This document shows, in pieces, positions 52,068-59,356 of a stretch of 64,000 nucleotides of DNA. Under the pieces are notes generated by a model, which was not told where the DNA came from, ran no database searches, and saw only the letters and a list, made by a program, of their open reading frames with translations. Source of the DNA: Synechococcus sp. M16CYN (GTDB taxonomy: Bacteria > Cyanobacteriota > Cyanobacteriia > PCC-6307 > Cyanobiaceae); the NCBI RefSeq assembly GCF_040371545.1, contig NZ_AP029048.1, positions 682,001 through 746,000 of the forward strand, written 5' to 3'. Every line of letters begins with the position of its first letter. The stretch's first letter is position 1. The translations under genes were made by a program, and so were the position numbers.

Positions 52068-52646
52068 TCAACTGCGGCGGACTGTTCCGGTACTAGCCAG
52101 TGCAGGCTCCACTCCCTCATTCGGCCGAGCGATGATATGGGCAGCAACCAGCCCATCCCCAACACGCTCGCATGCATCAGCACCAGCACGCACTGCAGCG
52201 TTTACGGCACCAGTCTCGCCACGCACCATGACGGTGACGTAACCGCCACCAACGTACTCACAACAGATCAAGTTTACTTCTGCAGCCTTCGTCATGGCGT
52301 CTGCCGCCTCAATGGCAGGAACCATGCCACGGGTTTCGATCATGCCGAGCGCAATACCCTTGACTGGTGCTTTGGACATCAAACTCGGCGGACCTAACCC
52401 TTCACCACCACCTGAAAGTACGCCACTACTGTCACTCATGACTTTTGTGGAGATTTTGCTTGTAGGTTTCGGGGGGGAGGAAGACACCGTGGACTTCTGC
52501 GATGACACGGAAGCCTTGACCGGAGGAGCCGCGGAGCCAATGGACTTTCCACTAGATGAAGCAGTGTTTGTGTTTATTGACTTCGCATCAACGGCCTCAT
52601 CACCTGCATTACCGCGGCGACGGGGGTTAGAGGAGGAGGTAGCCAT
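52068..52646 (-). CDS. csoS1E: CsoS1E-type BMC shell protein with long N-terminal extension
   Basis: A 192-aa protein. The C-terminal half (about residues 95-185) is a Pfam00936 BMC-H domain nearly identical to CsoS1: GIALGMIETRGMVPAIEAADA, YVGGGYVTVMVRGETGAVNAAVRAGADA, GDGLVAAHIIARP. The N-terminal 90 residues are low-complexity, rich in Ser, Lys, Pro and Thr, and look disordered. Alpha-cyanobacteria often carry such an extended shell protein between csoS4B and the NDH genes. The extension may tether cargo or the shell to a partner. Confidence 0.88.
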   Translation of the reverse strand: MATSSSNPRRRGNAGDEAVDAKSINTNTASSSGKSIGSAAPPVKASVSSQKSTVSSSPPKPTSKISTKVMSDSSGVLSGGGEGLGPPSLMSKAPVKGIALGMIETRGMVPAIEAADAMTKAAEVNLICCEYVGGGYVTVMVRGETGAVNAAVRAGADACERVGDGLVAAHIIARPNEGVEPALASTGTVRRS

Positions 52647-53271: not shown

Positions 53272-55014
53272 TCAGTGAGCCTCCTGACTTTGAGGATCGA
53301 GCGTGGAGCCGATAATCTCGGCCGGAGCCGATTGATGCCTATCGCGAATAGTCAGGCATGTGTGCAGCAAGCCATCGTAGACCAAGTCAAAATAGCGGTC
53401 GACGATAGCTTTATTCACACGTTTGCAATCTGCAATTGCTCGATCGCGGGCACCAGGAACACGACCGGAATAATCAAAACGCACCACAATTGGAATTGGC
53501 AAATCACGAGAAATGTTTAAATTCCGAAAGATTTTGATACCGACATCGAGATCAGGAGCCCCCTCCTCGACCGTATCTAGGTGAGCGAAGTATGTGAGAT
53601 TGCGTAAATGAACCTCTTTAAAACCAATACCCACACCAATGAACCTTTCAGCATGACCGACATCGAGATAAGAAGCCCCGTAAAGCTCCCGCACGTAATC
53701 AATTTGTGAGCAGTTGTTAGATAACAAATGCGTTAAGAAGGTGAGCATGCCAGGATCCATAGGACCAGGGGCGGCTGACTTCAATGCTTTGGCAATTTGA
53801 GCCATCGCCTGATCAGGAGACATGGCTACGGTTGCAGTATAAAGTTCATGCGCACACACCCACTGATCAAGAACCATTTCACTATCTCTATTGGGTGGGT
53901 GGACGCGAATTGCGTCAGTATCGGTATCGAGACCAATTAGCAGAAGTTTTACGGAGGCTCCACAGCAGAAGCTATTCTCCACGGCTTCTCGGAAATTAAG
54001 AAGACGCTTATAAGCGGCCGATGCAGCTAACTCGTCGTTACTGGCATGTGCAGCACAGCCGTGAAGATGAGGCGCTAAGGAACTAAAGTGGTACGTTACT
54101 ACTTTCAAATAACGGGTCGTTTCTGTGAAGGGGTTGGGTTTACCTTCACGATGGCGACTGTGTTCAGTTTTAATCCAGCGGTTCACCGTGTTTTCCACAT
54201 TAAACATGGCACCAGCATGGGAACGGCGACGCACGGCACTGAAAGGAATGCGTAGAACATAGGCAACGGTATGAGCCAAGCGACCATCAGCGCACGGCGT
54301 GATGTCTAAGAGGTGGATGCCGCAATTCAGCAGAAATTGTTCAAATTCCCGAGCAGAGGAGCTATCTTGTGCACCCTGGAGAGGGTCGTCTTGAAAAAAG
54401 TGATCACTAAATAAGCGATGGCTTTCGAAAACACACCAAGCGAATAAACCACGCATATCTAGTGGCTTAATCCAAGCGCGTTCGAGTATATAGTTAGGCA
54501 AATCGAAGCCAAGCTCGGCACGGCTCAAACGCTGGGCTTGGACAATGAAATCAGGCTTGTGCTGCAAAGCAGACACCTGTTGCAATACAGGGACGATGCG
54601 GTCAAAACCCCCCTTAACCTTTTGTTCGTAAGAACGCAGGCGGTCATTTACAGCTTGATTGGTTAGGGGATGACTTCGGTTACTGCGGGAAAGCGAGGAC
54701 TGATCGGAATTGAACGGCATTGTCGAGCGATCCTGGTTCTGTCGCAGCTGACGACGACTAGGAGCCTGAGGTCGCCCGTTGCGGATACGAACCCGATCAG
54801 AACCGAGGGGTCCTTGAATTGCTACGGCTGCCTTGCCAACAGTAGCCAGAGCGCGACGACGCTCGAGAGCGGTGCTGCGGACCGGACCGTCACGGAAGCC
54901 TGACTGAAGATCAACAGAGTTCTTTTTTTGGCTAGAGCGATCCTGGTTCTGTCGCAGCTGACGACGACTAGGAGCCTGAGGTCGCCCGTTGCGGAAAGAC
55001 ATGGAGCGAACCAT
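53272..55014 (-). CDS. csoSCA: carboxysomal carbonic anhydrase CsoSCA (CsoS3), epsilon/beta-like
   Basis: Zn enzyme turning bicarbonate to CO2 inside the carboxysome. The 580-aa protein has the beta-type motif CADGR (Cys about 241) and later Zn ligands in TYHF (His about 309) and LHGCAAH (Cys about 320), spaced like the structurally known C-x68-H-x10-C set. The N-terminal 110 residues are disordered and odd: RNGRPQAPSRRQLRQNQDRS occurs twice (residues 8-27 and 78-97). Between the copies lies ALERRRALATVGKAA...GSDRVR, which aligns with the CsoS2 N-repeat. The ATG at 55014 starts it; 55002 is possible. Confidence 0.95.
   Translation of the reverse strand: MVRSMSFRNGRPQAPSRRQLRQNQDRSSQKKNSVDLQSGFRDGPVRSTALERRRALATVGKAAVAIQGPLGSDRVRIRNGRPQAPSRRQLRQNQDRSTMPFNSDQSSLSRSNRSHPLTNQAVNDRLRSYEQKVKGGFDRIVPVLQQVSALQHKPDFIVQAQRLSRAELGFDLPNYILERAWIKPLDMRGLFAWCVFESHRLFSDHFFQDDPLQGAQDSSSAREFEQFLLNCGIHLLDITPCADGRLAHTVAYVLRIPFSAVRRRSHAGAMFNVENTVNRWIKTEHSRHREGKPNPFTETTRYLKVVTYHFSSLAPHLHGCAAHASNDELAASAAYKRLLNFREAVENSFCCGASVKLLLIGLDTDTDAIRVHPPNRDSEMVLDQWVCAHELYTATVAMSPDQAMAQIAKALKSAAPGPMDPGMLTFLTHLLSNNCSQIDYVRELYGASYLDVGHAERFIGVGIGFKEVHLRNLTYFAHLDTVEEGAPDLDVGIKIFRNLNISRDLPIPIVVRFDYSGRVPGARDRAIADCKRVNKAIVDRYFDLVYDGLLHTCLTIRDRHQSAPAEIIGSTLDPQSQEAH
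54725..54995 (-). repeat. in-frame 61-bp direct repeat in csoSCA 5' region
   Basis: Identical 61-bp copies at 54725-54785 and 54935-54995 are 210 bp (70 codons) apart and in frame. They encode the duplicated RNGRPQAPSRRQ block. The 149-bp segment between is unique within the gene but its translation resembles the start of CsoS2. Exact identity suggests a recent event or gene conversion; an assembly artefact must be ruled out. Confidence 0.95.
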
Positions 55015-55021
55015 TAGTAAA

Positions 55022-57415
55022 TCAACCCCTTGCTCCACCTGAAACGGTGACTAAAGAACCCTTATCGGTATTACCGCTTGAGCCTGTTACACGGCTTGTA
55101 GGCCACTCGACTTCTTGATTACGCTTCTTCTCGTAGGAAGCCATAGCACTCATTGGACCAGGACGGGTGGGATTGCGACGGCGTGCTGATGCACCTTCGG
55201 TTCCCGTGACGTGTTTTCCACGATCCCAATCATCGCCGGTCACCTTGGTAGACGAACCTTCGCCGGTCACTCGTGAGATGTGCTCGGCTGGTTTTTGATC
55301 TACGTCTGGAGCTGTTAGGGCTGTCGGTTGAAACCGACGGGCTTGCTGTTGGGAATTTTGAAGTTCACGATTGTCAAATCGAAATTGTTCTGTACCGGTC
55401 ACCTTTCCGCCAGCCATGTCAAAAGGACCGGTAATGCGATGGCCATTCTCATAAGCGATACCGGTCACTGAGGATCGCGAATCACGCCGCCGCTGCGCCG
55501 CTCGTGCAGGCGATACGACACTAAAGCTCATCCAAGGAGCATGCTCGTCGGACTGAACATGGCGATCGGAACTCGCAAGAACTTCGGTTCCACAAACAGC
55601 TGATAATTGTTCAGCACCGACGTAAGGAGTGCCTGAGATCGTTTCACACGCACCGCGCTCATTACCGGTCATGACTCCACCAATCCCCGGCTGAATACCT
55701 GTCATAGAAGCTGCGGGAGTACCTGGGCGATACGGGGTGCGTTCGCGAATTGCTTGAACGGCTGAAGTACTGCAGTACTGACCAGCCTGCTCAAGGCCTG
55801 CATAGGGCGTTCCTGTGACAGGCTTGCAAGTCCCCGGTTCATCACCAGTCACTTGTTCAGATCTCCCGGTTTGGGTTCCGCTCACCACAAGACTGCGGTT
55901 GGTAGTACTGAAACCAACTTTGGAGGCTTCGGCAACTGGCTTCGAACCACAAAAAGAGTGGAACTGTTCGGAACTGAGGTATTGGTCACCAGTGACGCGA
56001 TGGCAGGACCCAAACTCATCTCCGGTGACGGCTGATGAACGACCCACCAAGGTACCGGTCACACTTGCACCAGCCACGGTCTCGGATATACCAACCTTGG
56101 CGGCTGGACGACCTTTAGGCAATGGATCAGAACCCAAGTATTGATCACCTGTGAGGGTGCGGTCCGCTCCAGCTTCATCACCTGTCACGCTGGAGGAACG
56201 ACCCACCATTACACCGCTCACACGACGTCCCTGCTGGGTAAGGCTCTGACCAACCTTCTTGGGTGAAGGGTTCACACCACCGCAATAAGCGGCATGCTGA
56301 GTTGCAGATATGTACTCTGTACCGGTCACACTTTTGCAAGTTCCGGGCTCATCACCAGTAACTTTCTCTGAACGACCCACCTCATTTCCCGTCACTCGGT
56401 TGCCATGAGTAGTGGCGGTGACGCGCACCTTTGCTGGTGTTGTCGTCTCGGGTGCGGATTGACAAAAGGTTTGAAACACTTCGGCACCGAGATACTCGGT
56501 GCCTGTGATGGAACGGCATGTGCTGGCTTCGTTGCCCGTTGTCTTTATCGAGCGATTGGCTTGGGTACCAGTCACAATCTGACCGGAGGATGTTTTGCTT
56601 TCACCAACTTTCCAGTAAGCGTCAGCAGAAGCAGCCTGTTTTGCGCCGTGACGGTTCGGACCACTTGGACGTGTAATTCCGGTGCTTTGTTGGTTTCGAG
56701 AACCTGCCTTAGCACGAAGCTGACGGACTCGCTGGGCGAGCTCCCGACTGGTTAAATCAGGGTTCGCATGACGTGCAACAGCAGCAGCACTGGTTGGTTG
56801 TCTTCCTGCAGTCTTGCCATGCTTAGCCATGGCTTCTCTACGGGCTAAAACTAGTGTCCGGCTAGGATTATCGATAGCACGACGCTTCAGAAAAACGGAA
56901 CGTCGATCATTGTTACGACTGCCCAGTTGAGTAGCGGGAGCAGATAACGCTAGGCGAGATGTCTGTGAGACCGCACTATCTCCACCGAGTTTGAAAACTT
57001 CCTTCTTAGATCCTAGTGTGGCGGCAGGAACAGTTGACTTGGTTCTACGGACAATCTCAGCACGAGTGCAATCATGGGATGTGTCAGCCGCTTTTCCGCG
57101 ACGAGATAAGGCATCACGGCGGGCCAACGCCAGTTCACGGCTGGGGCGGCTCAAAGGCTTGGCCTGAGAACGATAGGCAGAAGAAGATGTCAATTTCTGC
57201 CAACGTCGCTGACCAATAGAAACCGATGCAGCAGGGGTTGATGCCTCAAGTTCAGGAGGCGAAGCACTGGCATCGGTGCGGCGCCTCAAGCGGACATCGG
57301 CCGCTGTGCGAACACGATTCGAGCCATTACCGGCAGCGATAGATGCCTTTTTACCAACAATGGTGAGAGCCTTTCGGCGCTCAAGCGCAAGTTCGCGACT
57401 AGAAAGTCTTACCAT
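55022..57415 (-). CDS. csoS2: carboxysome assembly scaffold CsoS2
   Basis: Disordered linker of 797 aa joining RuBisCO to the shell. Four N-region repeats with the helix SRELALERRKALTIVGK are at about residues 6-22, 92-108, 185-201 and 223-237; these bind RuBisCO. Six M-region repeats (about 269-609) carry VTG triplets and most end in a Cys. The C-region (610-797) ends RVTGSSGNTDKGSLVTVSGG and contacts the shell. I chose ATG 57415; the open frame to 57514 would run through a hairpin and into rbcS. A known coupling or frameshift variant of CsoS2 is not judged here. Confidence 0.96.
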   Translation of the reverse strand: MVRLSSRELALERRKALTIVGKKASIAAGNGSNRVRTAADVRLRRRTDASASPPELEASTPAASVSIGQRRWQKLTSSSAYRSQAKPLSRPSRELALARRDALSRRGKAADTSHDCTRAEIVRRTKSTVPAATLGSKKEVFKLGGDSAVSQTSRLALSAPATQLGSRNNDRRSVFLKRRAIDNPSRTLVLARREAMAKHGKTAGRQPTSAAAVARHANPDLTSRELAQRVRQLRAKAGSRNQQSTGITRPSGPNRHGAKQAASADAYWKVGESKTSSGQIVTGTQANRSIKTTGNEASTCRSITGTEYLGAEVFQTFCQSAPETTTPAKVRVTATTHGNRVTGNEVGRSEKVTGDEPGTCKSVTGTEYISATQHAAYCGGVNPSPKKVGQSLTQQGRRVSGVMVGRSSSVTGDEAGADRTLTGDQYLGSDPLPKGRPAAKVGISETVAGASVTGTLVGRSSAVTGDEFGSCHRVTGDQYLSSEQFHSFCGSKPVAEASKVGFSTTNRSLVVSGTQTGRSEQVTGDEPGTCKPVTGTPYAGLEQAGQYCSTSAVQAIRERTPYRPGTPAASMTGIQPGIGGVMTGNERGACETISGTPYVGAEQLSAVCGTEVLASSDRHVQSDEHAPWMSFSVVSPARAAQRRRDSRSSVTGIAYENGHRITGPFDMAGGKVTGTEQFRFDNRELQNSQQQARRFQPTALTAPDVDQKPAEHISRVTGEGSSTKVTGDDWDRGKHVTGTEGASARRRNPTRPGPMSAMASYEKKRNQEVEWPTSRVTGSSGNTDKGSLVTVSGGARG

Positions 57416-57500: not shown

Positions 57501-57842
57501 TTAGCGACCCTCAAAGACTACGAAGCAGGAGCCTTGGCTCTGAGTGTATGCGTCGTAACCGACTATGCGTACGTGATGGTCGGGGTATGCGCGGTGACAA
57601 GCTTCAAGCTCACTAACCACATTGTTCAAATCCTTTTCACCAAAGAAAGGAAGCTTCCAATAAGACCAATAGGTGGCCATGGAGTTAGAAGGATGGACGT
57701 GCTCAACGAGCGGGCTCCAACCCTGAGCGATAATGTACTCAATTTGATCGTAAATTTCGTCCTGCGTCATCGGCGGTAGGAAACCGAAGGTCTCCAGGGT
57801 GGCAACTGTTTGATAGTCACCCACGGTGCTCTGGAAAGGCAT
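57501..57842 (-). CDS. rbcS: RuBisCO small subunit, form IA
   Basis: Small subunit of the form IA enzyme (CbbS type), 113 aa. Family start FETFGFLPPMT-like block (TLETFGFLPPMTQDEIYDQIEYI), GWSPLVEHVHPSN, WSYWKLPFFG and the C-terminal VRIVGYDAYTQSQGSCFVVFEGR. Starts 101 nt after rbcL on the minus strand. The gap carries no other feature. Assembles into L8S8 with RbcL and enters carboxysomes through CsoS2. Confidence 0.98.
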   Translation of the reverse strand: MPFQSTVGDYQTVATLETFGFLPPMTQDEIYDQIEYIIAQGWSPLVEHVHPSNSMATYWSYWKLPFFGEKDLNNVVSELEACHRAYPDHHVRIVGYDAYTQSQGSCFVVFEGR

Positions 57843-57943: not shown

Positions 57944-59356
57944 TCATTGGACGTCGAGTTTGTCGACAGTGTCGAACTCGAACTTGATTTCCTTCCAGGT
58001 ATCGAGAGCGATGGCCAGCTCAGGGCTATGCTTACCGGCCTCCATGAGAATGTCACGGCTTTCTTGCTCGATCTCGCGACCAGCATTGCGTGCCTTAACG
58101 CAAGCCTCGAGAGCCACACGGTTAGCAGCAGCGCCAGCAGCGGAGCCCCAAGGATGGCCATGGGTACCACCACCGAACTGAAGAACCGAATCATCACCGA
58201 AAATGGCAACTAGCGCGGGCATGTGCCATACATGAATACCGCCGGAAGCAACGGCAAACACACCAGGCATGGAACCCCAATCCTGATCAAAGAAGTTGCC
58301 ACGGCTACGATCTTCAGGAACGAAAGATTCGCGCAATTGATCTATGTAACCGAGGGTGGTCTGACGATCGCCTTCCAACTTGCCGACCACGGTGCCGGTG
58401 TGCAGTTGGTCACCCCCGGATAGACGTAAGCACTTGGCGAGGACACGGAAGTGAATGCCGTGCTTGGGATGGCGGTCAATCACAGCATGCATGGCACGGT
58501 GAATATGTAGCAGCATGCCGTTCTTGCGACACCACCTCGATAGACCAGTGTTCGCGGTGAAACCGCCGGTAATGAAGTCATGCATGATGATTGGCATGCC
58601 AAGTTCTTTGGCGAACTCGGCACGCTCATACATTTCTTCAGGGGTGTTGGCGGTCACGTTGAGGTAATGACCTTTGCGCTCACCAGTCTCTTGTTCGGAC
58701 AGTTTGATGGCTTCCGCAACAAATTCGAAGCGATTTTGCCAGCGTTGGAAAGGCTGGGAGTTGATGTTTTCGTCATCTTTAGTGAAGTCCAGACCGCCGC
58801 GCAGACACTCGTAGACAACACGTCCATAGTTTTTGCCGCTCAAGCCAAGTTTTGGTTTAATGGTGCAACCCAACAGAGGGCGACCGTACTTATTCATCCG
58901 ATCGCGCTCAACAGCGATACCGTTCGGCGGGCCGTAGCAGCTCTTGATAAAAGCGATTGGAAAACGTATGTCTTCCAATCGTAGATGGCGCAAAGCCTTG
59001 AAGCCAAACACGTTGCCAACCAGTGAAGTCAGAACGTTGGTAATGGAGCCTTCCTCAAACAAGTCGAGAGGATAGGCGACAAAAGCATAAAAGGCTTCCT
59101 TGTCACCAGGAACGTCTTCAATGCGATAGCAGCGGCCTTTGTAGAAATCGAGGTCGGTAAGCAGCTCGGACCACACAGTGGACCAGGTGCCAGTTGAGGA
59201 TTCAGCAGCCACAGCAGCGGCAACTTCTTCTTTTGGAACACCTTCTTGGCCGGTGCACTTGAAACAGGCTAAAAGGTCGGTATCTAAGGGAACGTAATCA
59301 GGAGTCCAGTAAGTGTCCCTGTACTCCTTGACCCCAGCGTCGTACTTTTTGCTCAT
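57944..59356 (-). CDS. rbcL: RuBisCO large subunit, form IA
   Basis: Catalytic subunit, 470 aa. Active-site elements: [18 protein letters not shown] with the catalytic Lys, GLDFTKDDE with the carbamylated Lys and metal Asp/Glu, [30 protein letters not shown], and loop 6/phosphate region [11 protein letters not shown]. Form IA identity is supported by the N-terminus [21 protein letters not shown] and the cso context. No substitutions of active-site residues were seen. Confidence 0.99.

Follow-up and report, generated by a model that had tools for sequence, protein, structure and literature searches.

The stretch of DNA that we analysed, hereafter the window, spans 64,000 nucleotides from Synechococcus sp. 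M16CYN and carries on its minus strand a row of cso genes in the order csoS1, cbbL, cbbS, csoS2, csoSCA, two small pentamer-type genes and a CsoS1-like gene. The names of csoS2 and csoSCA rest on Pfam and NCBIfam models and that of cbbL on a PDB match, while the other names in the row (e.g., csoS1, pentamer-type, CsoS1-like) are our presumptive assignments. The cbbL gene (57944..59356) encodes a form IA Rubisco large subunit whose best solved chain is 7yyo_A (1070.6 bits), and is followed by what we take to be cbbS (57501..57842), the product of which contains a YDAY stretch, placed by eye, that seems to keep the equivalents of Halothiobacillus CbbS D94 and Y96. The carboxysome scaffold gene csoS2 (55022..57415; 797 aa; NCBIfam NF050159 at 1217.1 bits, and Pfam CsoS2_M) lies directly upstream of csoSCA (53272..55014), which it adjoins in the operon. 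The CsoS1-like protein (52068-52646) has a long Ser/Pro-rich N-terminal extension and is presumably CsoS1E. A gene of the CsoS1E type is mentioned in PMC4499774.

The csoSCA open reading frame extends from 53272 to 55038 on the minus strand and, from the ATG at 55014 (MVRS start), encodes a carboxysomal β-carbonic anhydrase of 580 aa, the enzyme that generates CO2 within the carboxysome. All three Pfam domains of the enzyme (CsoSCA_N, CsoSCA_cat and CsoSCA_C; PF20687, PF20686 and PF08936) score above cut-off, and the protein matches TIGR02701 with 641.3 bits. The folded part is preceded by an N-terminal tail (54673..55014, minus strand) predicted by AlphaFold2 to be disordered up to about residue 111, with pLDDT below 50 at residues 1-20 and 22-111, and CsoSCA_N begins at residue 115. 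The sole helix predicted in this tail, at low confidence (pLDDT <50), spans residues 45-57. Searched in isolation against Pfam, the tail matches no family above cut-off (CsoS2_M appears at E 0.13). Neither PRLDLIEQA, the H. neapolitanus-type targeting peptide, nor PTAPx[RK]R was found in it; APSRR occurs twice instead, with no PTAP.

The tail contains a segment resembling the first N-terminal repeat (N1) of CsoS2. This N1-like motif, RSTALERRRALATVGKAA (54826..54879, minus strand; RSTALERRRALATVGK at 54832-54879), was recovered by BLASTP, by an N1 profile, and by searches of the PDB and of the genome itself, and is followed by a GSDRVR box (54787..54804, minus strand), which BLASTP pairs with the GSNRVR box after CsoS2 N1. 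N1 itself, RELALERRKALTIVGK, lies at 57350-57397 on the minus strand and, together with its RVR box (57308..57397), is the likely source of the motif, as indicated by BLASTP and the genome profile search. An earlier note on this DNA had aligned the two proteins and proposed that they share a homologous motif. BLASTP of the CsoSCA tail against the window's CsoS2 reproduced that alignment, pairing residues 46-76 with 7-36 at 18 of 31 identities and one gap (E 3e-5), and the signature R-x5-RR-x5/6-GK of CsoS2-type Rubisco-binding repeats is present in the CsoSCA motif.

To score this likeness, profiles of N1, N2 and N3 were built from 53 CsoS2 loci, none of them belonging to g1 (the genus of the window) or to the related genus g37, with 3,479 shuffled g1 and g37 CsoSCA tails as control; the N2 and N3 training rows were chosen by regular expression, and a few may be misassigned (e.g., L104, whose N2 and N3 rows are near-identical). 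With the N1 profile, 55 of the 58 complete g1 and g37 tails score above every shuffle, with a median of 35.5 bits against 17.5 for the best shuffle. The three that do not (G021, G351 and G364) all lack the motif, and the best score among the 110 tails scored from other genera, of 111 in total, is 3.4 bits. Median scores for g1 and g37 tails are far lower with the N2 (10.3 bits) and N3 (8.5 bits) profiles, so the likeness is specifically to N1. The helix part of the N1 profile alone gives a median of 24.4 bits (17.3 in the window), whereas the post-helix part (N1d) alone does not exceed shuffles in these tails, and we therefore make no claim for it by itself. The window's tail scores 25.2 bits with the N1 profile, third lowest of the 55 carriers, and its motif has an alanine where 53 of the 55 have threonine and a valine before GK. 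That valine is found just before GK only in the window's CsoSCA (1 of 55) and only in the window's CsoS2 N1 (1 of 81), which may be a parallel change or co-adaptation.

Database searches gave the same picture. The top three matches among all PDB chains are CsoS2 (E 3e-9, 3.3e-4 and 0.0064). In a six-frame search of the window's own genome, a profile of the cassette found CsoSCA (4.7e-16), CsoS2 N1 (3.8e-9) and, weakly, CsoS2 N2 (57092..57139, minus strand; 0.0056), with no further match at E ≤ 10 and thus none to CsoS2 N3 (56813..56860, minus strand). In each of 18 other genomes, the same profile found a near-full-length match within a frame of CsoS2 length. When 35 CsoSCA proteins, 23 of them carriers, were compared with the curated CsoS2 model NF050159, 22 matched at E ≤ 0.01, the best at 1.1e-7; the window's CsoSCA aligns with positions 7-71 of the model at E 0.022, short of that threshold. 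The shared motif proposed earlier is thus well supported and N1-specific, and the concern raised with it, that Arg/Ala-rich helices might align to this degree by chance, is answered by the shuffles and by the PDB and six-frame searches, which make chance, on sequence grounds, very unlikely.

We extracted CsoSCA from 170 genomes, 169 of them with a complete protein; G012 (partial ORF), G366 (a 141-aa open frame), G343 and G181, both with a CsoSCA match, and G026 and the other genomes with no such match were left out. Set A1 comprised 49 of the 55 cassettes and set A2 35 of the 169 proteins. Two CsoSCA_C matches per genome were seen in G082, G099, G319, G322, G390 and G402, which may represent a second gene, a broken contig or contamination. 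The motif is present in 31 of 32 complete tails of g1 and in 24 of 26 of g37, and in none of the 111 from 38 other genera, mostly sampled with one or two genomes each, including g27 (32 tails) and g28 (8). We take g27 and g28 to be Prochlorococcus; the CsoS2 N1 of g27 is close to 8wxb, which we believe to be from strain MED4. Aligning the CsoSCA N termini of relatives, as had been suggested, thus shows that the motif is far from peculiar to the window, although it is missing from all 40 g27 and g28 tails. A search for close relatives yielded seven named carrier loci, all seven with the motif, six of them labelled Synechococcus and one "Cyanobacteria bacterium."

On a tree of the folded part of CsoSCA (113 rows), the presence of the motif needs three changes, for which the simplest reading would be a single gain followed by two losses. 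Carriers lie on one side of a single branch, but support for that branch is only 6; g37 is split in the tree, and when g37 by itself was constrained as a clade, the AU test returned p 0.321. As for the losses, G021 differs from G025 by a 72 bp in-frame deletion spanning the helix and still has the cassette's second half (E 1.8e-4), while the whole motif segment is missing from G351 and G364. The motif has apparently been lost twice, once by the 72-bp deletion, and is therefore not strictly essential. Some tails of other genera have basic stretches of their own, namely LRQRELA and RRVRP in L094, L095 and L135 (g40) and LRGTRARAA in L078, L079 and L093 (g24 and g39), none with a match to CsoS2 N4. 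We therefore rejected an N4 origin for the basic motifs of Cyanobium-type tails, the best tail reaching 4.4 bits and the best shuffle 10.7 with a profile of 69 CsoS2 rows, one of them from g40. The tail of L089 (G354) carries a tandem SNRQT repeat.

Within the two genera, purifying selection acts on the helix. Over the 58 sequences, pN/pS is 0.22 in the helix, 0.54 in the 20 columns after it and 0.88 in the linker before it, compared with 0.15 in the first 250 residues of the folded part; among other tail elements, it is 0.20 in the P-x-AP element, 0.30 in a PGWVRR box and 0.57 in a PFNLSRSSLP box. Across all 49 sequences of the cassette, ten columns show no variation (R3, R9, R10, A12, L13, G17, K18, A20, R31 and R33), of which R3, R10, G17 and K18 (and R9 as R/K) had been pre-selected by the search pattern, the remaining ones not. 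The motif is thus a nearly fixed trait of the two related genera examined, kept by selection.

The likeness to CsoS2 is confined to the protein level. Among 198 residues identical between CsoSCA and CsoS2 N1 in 17 genomes, 47 are encoded by the same codon in both genes, with 65.0 expected. We also rejected a recent gene conversion between the two genes, as DNA identity over the 16 codons is 0.597 within genomes and 0.621 between them (17 genomes), the observed mean is equalled or exceeded in 4,985 of 5,000 permutations, and shared codons are fewer than expected. This deficit would fit repeats that are held distinct in their DNA, but the genomes are related, so it is not a test. With DNA-level likeness gone, the copy, if copy it is, would be old and maintained at the protein level.

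In the window, the motif is flanked by two exact copies of a 61-bp sequence, in direct orientation, in frame and 210 bp apart. The first (R1; 54935..54995, minus strand) spans the codons for RNGRPQAPSRRQLRQNQDRS minus the last base, including APSRR, and the second (R2; 54725..54785, minus strand) sits at the position of RDKRRPTPQQPGWVRRDQ in the near relative G003, alignment with which shows it to occupy the place of the PGWVRR segment. No other CsoSCA tail among the 169 has an exact non-overlapping internal repeat longer than 30 nt. The PGWVRR box, which follows the motif, is conserved in g1 and g37 tails (e.g., L022) and absent in the window. The repeat has the appearance of a recent duplication within the gene, by which APSRRQL came to be present twice and another conserved box was lost, but it may also be an assembly error. 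The stretch 54725-55014, described in the earlier note as holding the CsoS2-like repeat, does contain the motif, but part of it is this internal duplication, which had been overlooked.

Several of these elements have counterparts in better characterized systems. The CsoSCA tail of Halothiobacillus attaches to Rubisco where CsoS2 does, and packing depends on it (PMC10614612); the earlier note was right about the site, but the motifs differ there. According to that paper, the two peptides have different sequences, that of CsoS2 binding as a helix through salt bridges and cation-π contacts, and the Rubisco-bound CsoSCA tail was solved for a proteobacterium, with a peptide that is not conserved across species. 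The H. neapolitanus CsoSCA peptide (PRLDLIEQA; 7smk; PMC10614612) shares with the window's tail the same enzyme, a disordered context and a binding site used by CsoS2, but its sequence and binding mode are unrelated to our motif. The N-terminal repeats of CsoS2 (Rubisco fusion 6uew) are closer, sharing the R-x5-RR-x6-GK signature, N1 residues and the RVR box, although the cassette profile matches the 6uew peptide only at E 0.93; CsoS2 has several repeats in a scaffold, whereas CsoSCA has one in an enzyme tail and nothing of the CsoS2 middle or C-terminal region. The EPYC1-type motif of many pyrenoid proteins is likewise a scaffold motif reused by other cargo (PMC10614612), but is eukaryotic, unrelated and directed at a different Rubisco site. 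That CsoSCA can carry the CsoS2 motif had been remarked on before, for "a handful" of Prochlorococcus sequences, by Blikstad et al. 2023 (PMC10614612); it is the same motif in the same protein, but we find it in 55 of 58 tails of the two genera g1 and g37 and in 0 of 40 g27 and g28 tails, a mismatch that may reflect different naming or sampling. We met no mention of a CsoS2 motif in CsoSCA in the accessible parts of PMC11086599, PMC12646314, PMC12918739, PMC9388693, PMC13159521, PMC9164163, PMC4499774, PMC13249358 and PMC11365436. Relative to what these sources contain in those parts, the additions made here are the spread in Synechococcus, the N1 origin, the selection, the losses and the 61-bp flanking repeat.

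The partner surface is largely in place. The cbbL product bears most of the published binding site, with the equivalents of Halothiobacillus CbbL D99, S345, F346 and G362 conserved, while the Y72 contact is F71 in the window's CbbL, as it is in the closest solved chain, 7yyo. This preserves an aromatic ring that can stack on arginine, but not the hydroxyl on which the Halothiobacillus CsoSCA peptide relies, and would thus favour a CsoS2-like binding mode. The phenylalanine sits oddly with the statement in PMC10614612 that Y72 is conserved in α-carboxysomal Rubisco.

In the account that we consider likely, an old copy of N1, gained once from csoS2, persists in the CsoSCA tail, where it acts as a helix on Rubisco and helps to pack the anhydrase. 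N1, i.e., the R-x5-RR-x6-GK helix and the R-V-R box, would have been copied from the adjacent csoS2 into csoSCA, probably once, in an ancestor of the two related marine Synechococcus genera. When bound to Rubisco, the motif most likely takes the form of a short helix and would occupy the CsoS2 site, where two large subunits meet one small subunit, and the multimeric anhydrase would thereby gain extra contacts and be packed into the carboxysome. Since CsoSCA is a hexamer in recent structures (PMC11086599 and PMC12646314), many such motifs would be present per particle. A copied, Rubisco-binding N1 has points against it: the three tails without the motif, the missing DNA trace, the weak copy in the window, F71, the weak and less constrained post-helix part, and two published observations. 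Halothiobacillus CsoSCA gets into minishells even when CsoS2 is absent and makes contact with the shell protein CsoS1A (PMC12646314), so Rubisco binding may not be the sole route, and Pulsford et al. (PMC11086599) consider that the CsoSCA tail likely has a single binding motif.

The most serious alternative, which we regard as possible but the less probable account, is that P-x-AP-x-[RK] alone anchors the anhydrase, the N1-like copy being a minor aid to avidity or serving, e.g., mixing with CsoS2-Rubisco condensates. P.AP.[RK] is present in 164 of 169 CsoSCA tails and in all 58 of g1 and g37, including the three that lack the N1-like motif, and is the older element of the two; binding by PTAPx[RK]R has moreover been proposed (PMC10614612). 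This strict form, reported there in 87%, is however found in only 96 of our 169 tails (14/32 in g1, 18/26 in g37 and 64/111 in the others) and is absent in the window, and the helix is about as well conserved as the P-x-AP element over the two genera. Because 3 of 58 and 111 of 111 tails do without the N1-like motif, and nearly all have P-x-AP-x-[RK], the motif is more likely to be a contact added beside this older element than the sole anchor. The reading of the earlier note, in which a copied scaffold repeat recruits the anhydrase, is thus supported in part: the homology well, the recruitment only as a possibility.

Convergence, in which a basic helix fitting Rubisco arose within the CsoSCA tail and was never copied from CsoS2, is unlikely. 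The motif is short and its DNA-level likeness does not exceed codon chance, as convergence would have it, but N1 scores far above N2 and N3, and A12, L13, A20 and the downstream R-x-R are shared although they lie outside the published signature. We give still less credence to the motif being ancestral to α-cyanobacterial CsoSCA and lost in Prochlorococcus- and Cyanobium-type genera: losses do occur (G021; G351 and G364) and the branch uniting the carriers is poorly supported, but not one of the 111 tails in 38 other genera has the motif, and none of the 110 scored exceeds 3.4 bits. Chance likeness of Arg/Ala-rich helices is highly improbable, for although the tail is basic and one shuffle reached 17.5 bits, 55 of 58 tails beat all shuffles, and CsoS2 comes first in the PDB and whole-genome searches.

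Returning to an N1 copied from csoS2, the hexameric anhydrase, with six tails each bearing at least two Rubisco-binding elements, might even be a second, minor scaffold, a reading that we put forward only tentatively. If so, CsoSCA would compete with CsoS2 for one site, which would set the amount of anhydrase packed, and the 61-bp duplication would bring each tail up to three such elements in the window's genome. With a motif that is nearly fixed, natural losses and motif-free relatives, the packing of carbonic anhydrase in cyanobacterial α-carboxysomes becomes directly testable, and the motif might serve as a targeting tag in engineered carboxysomes.
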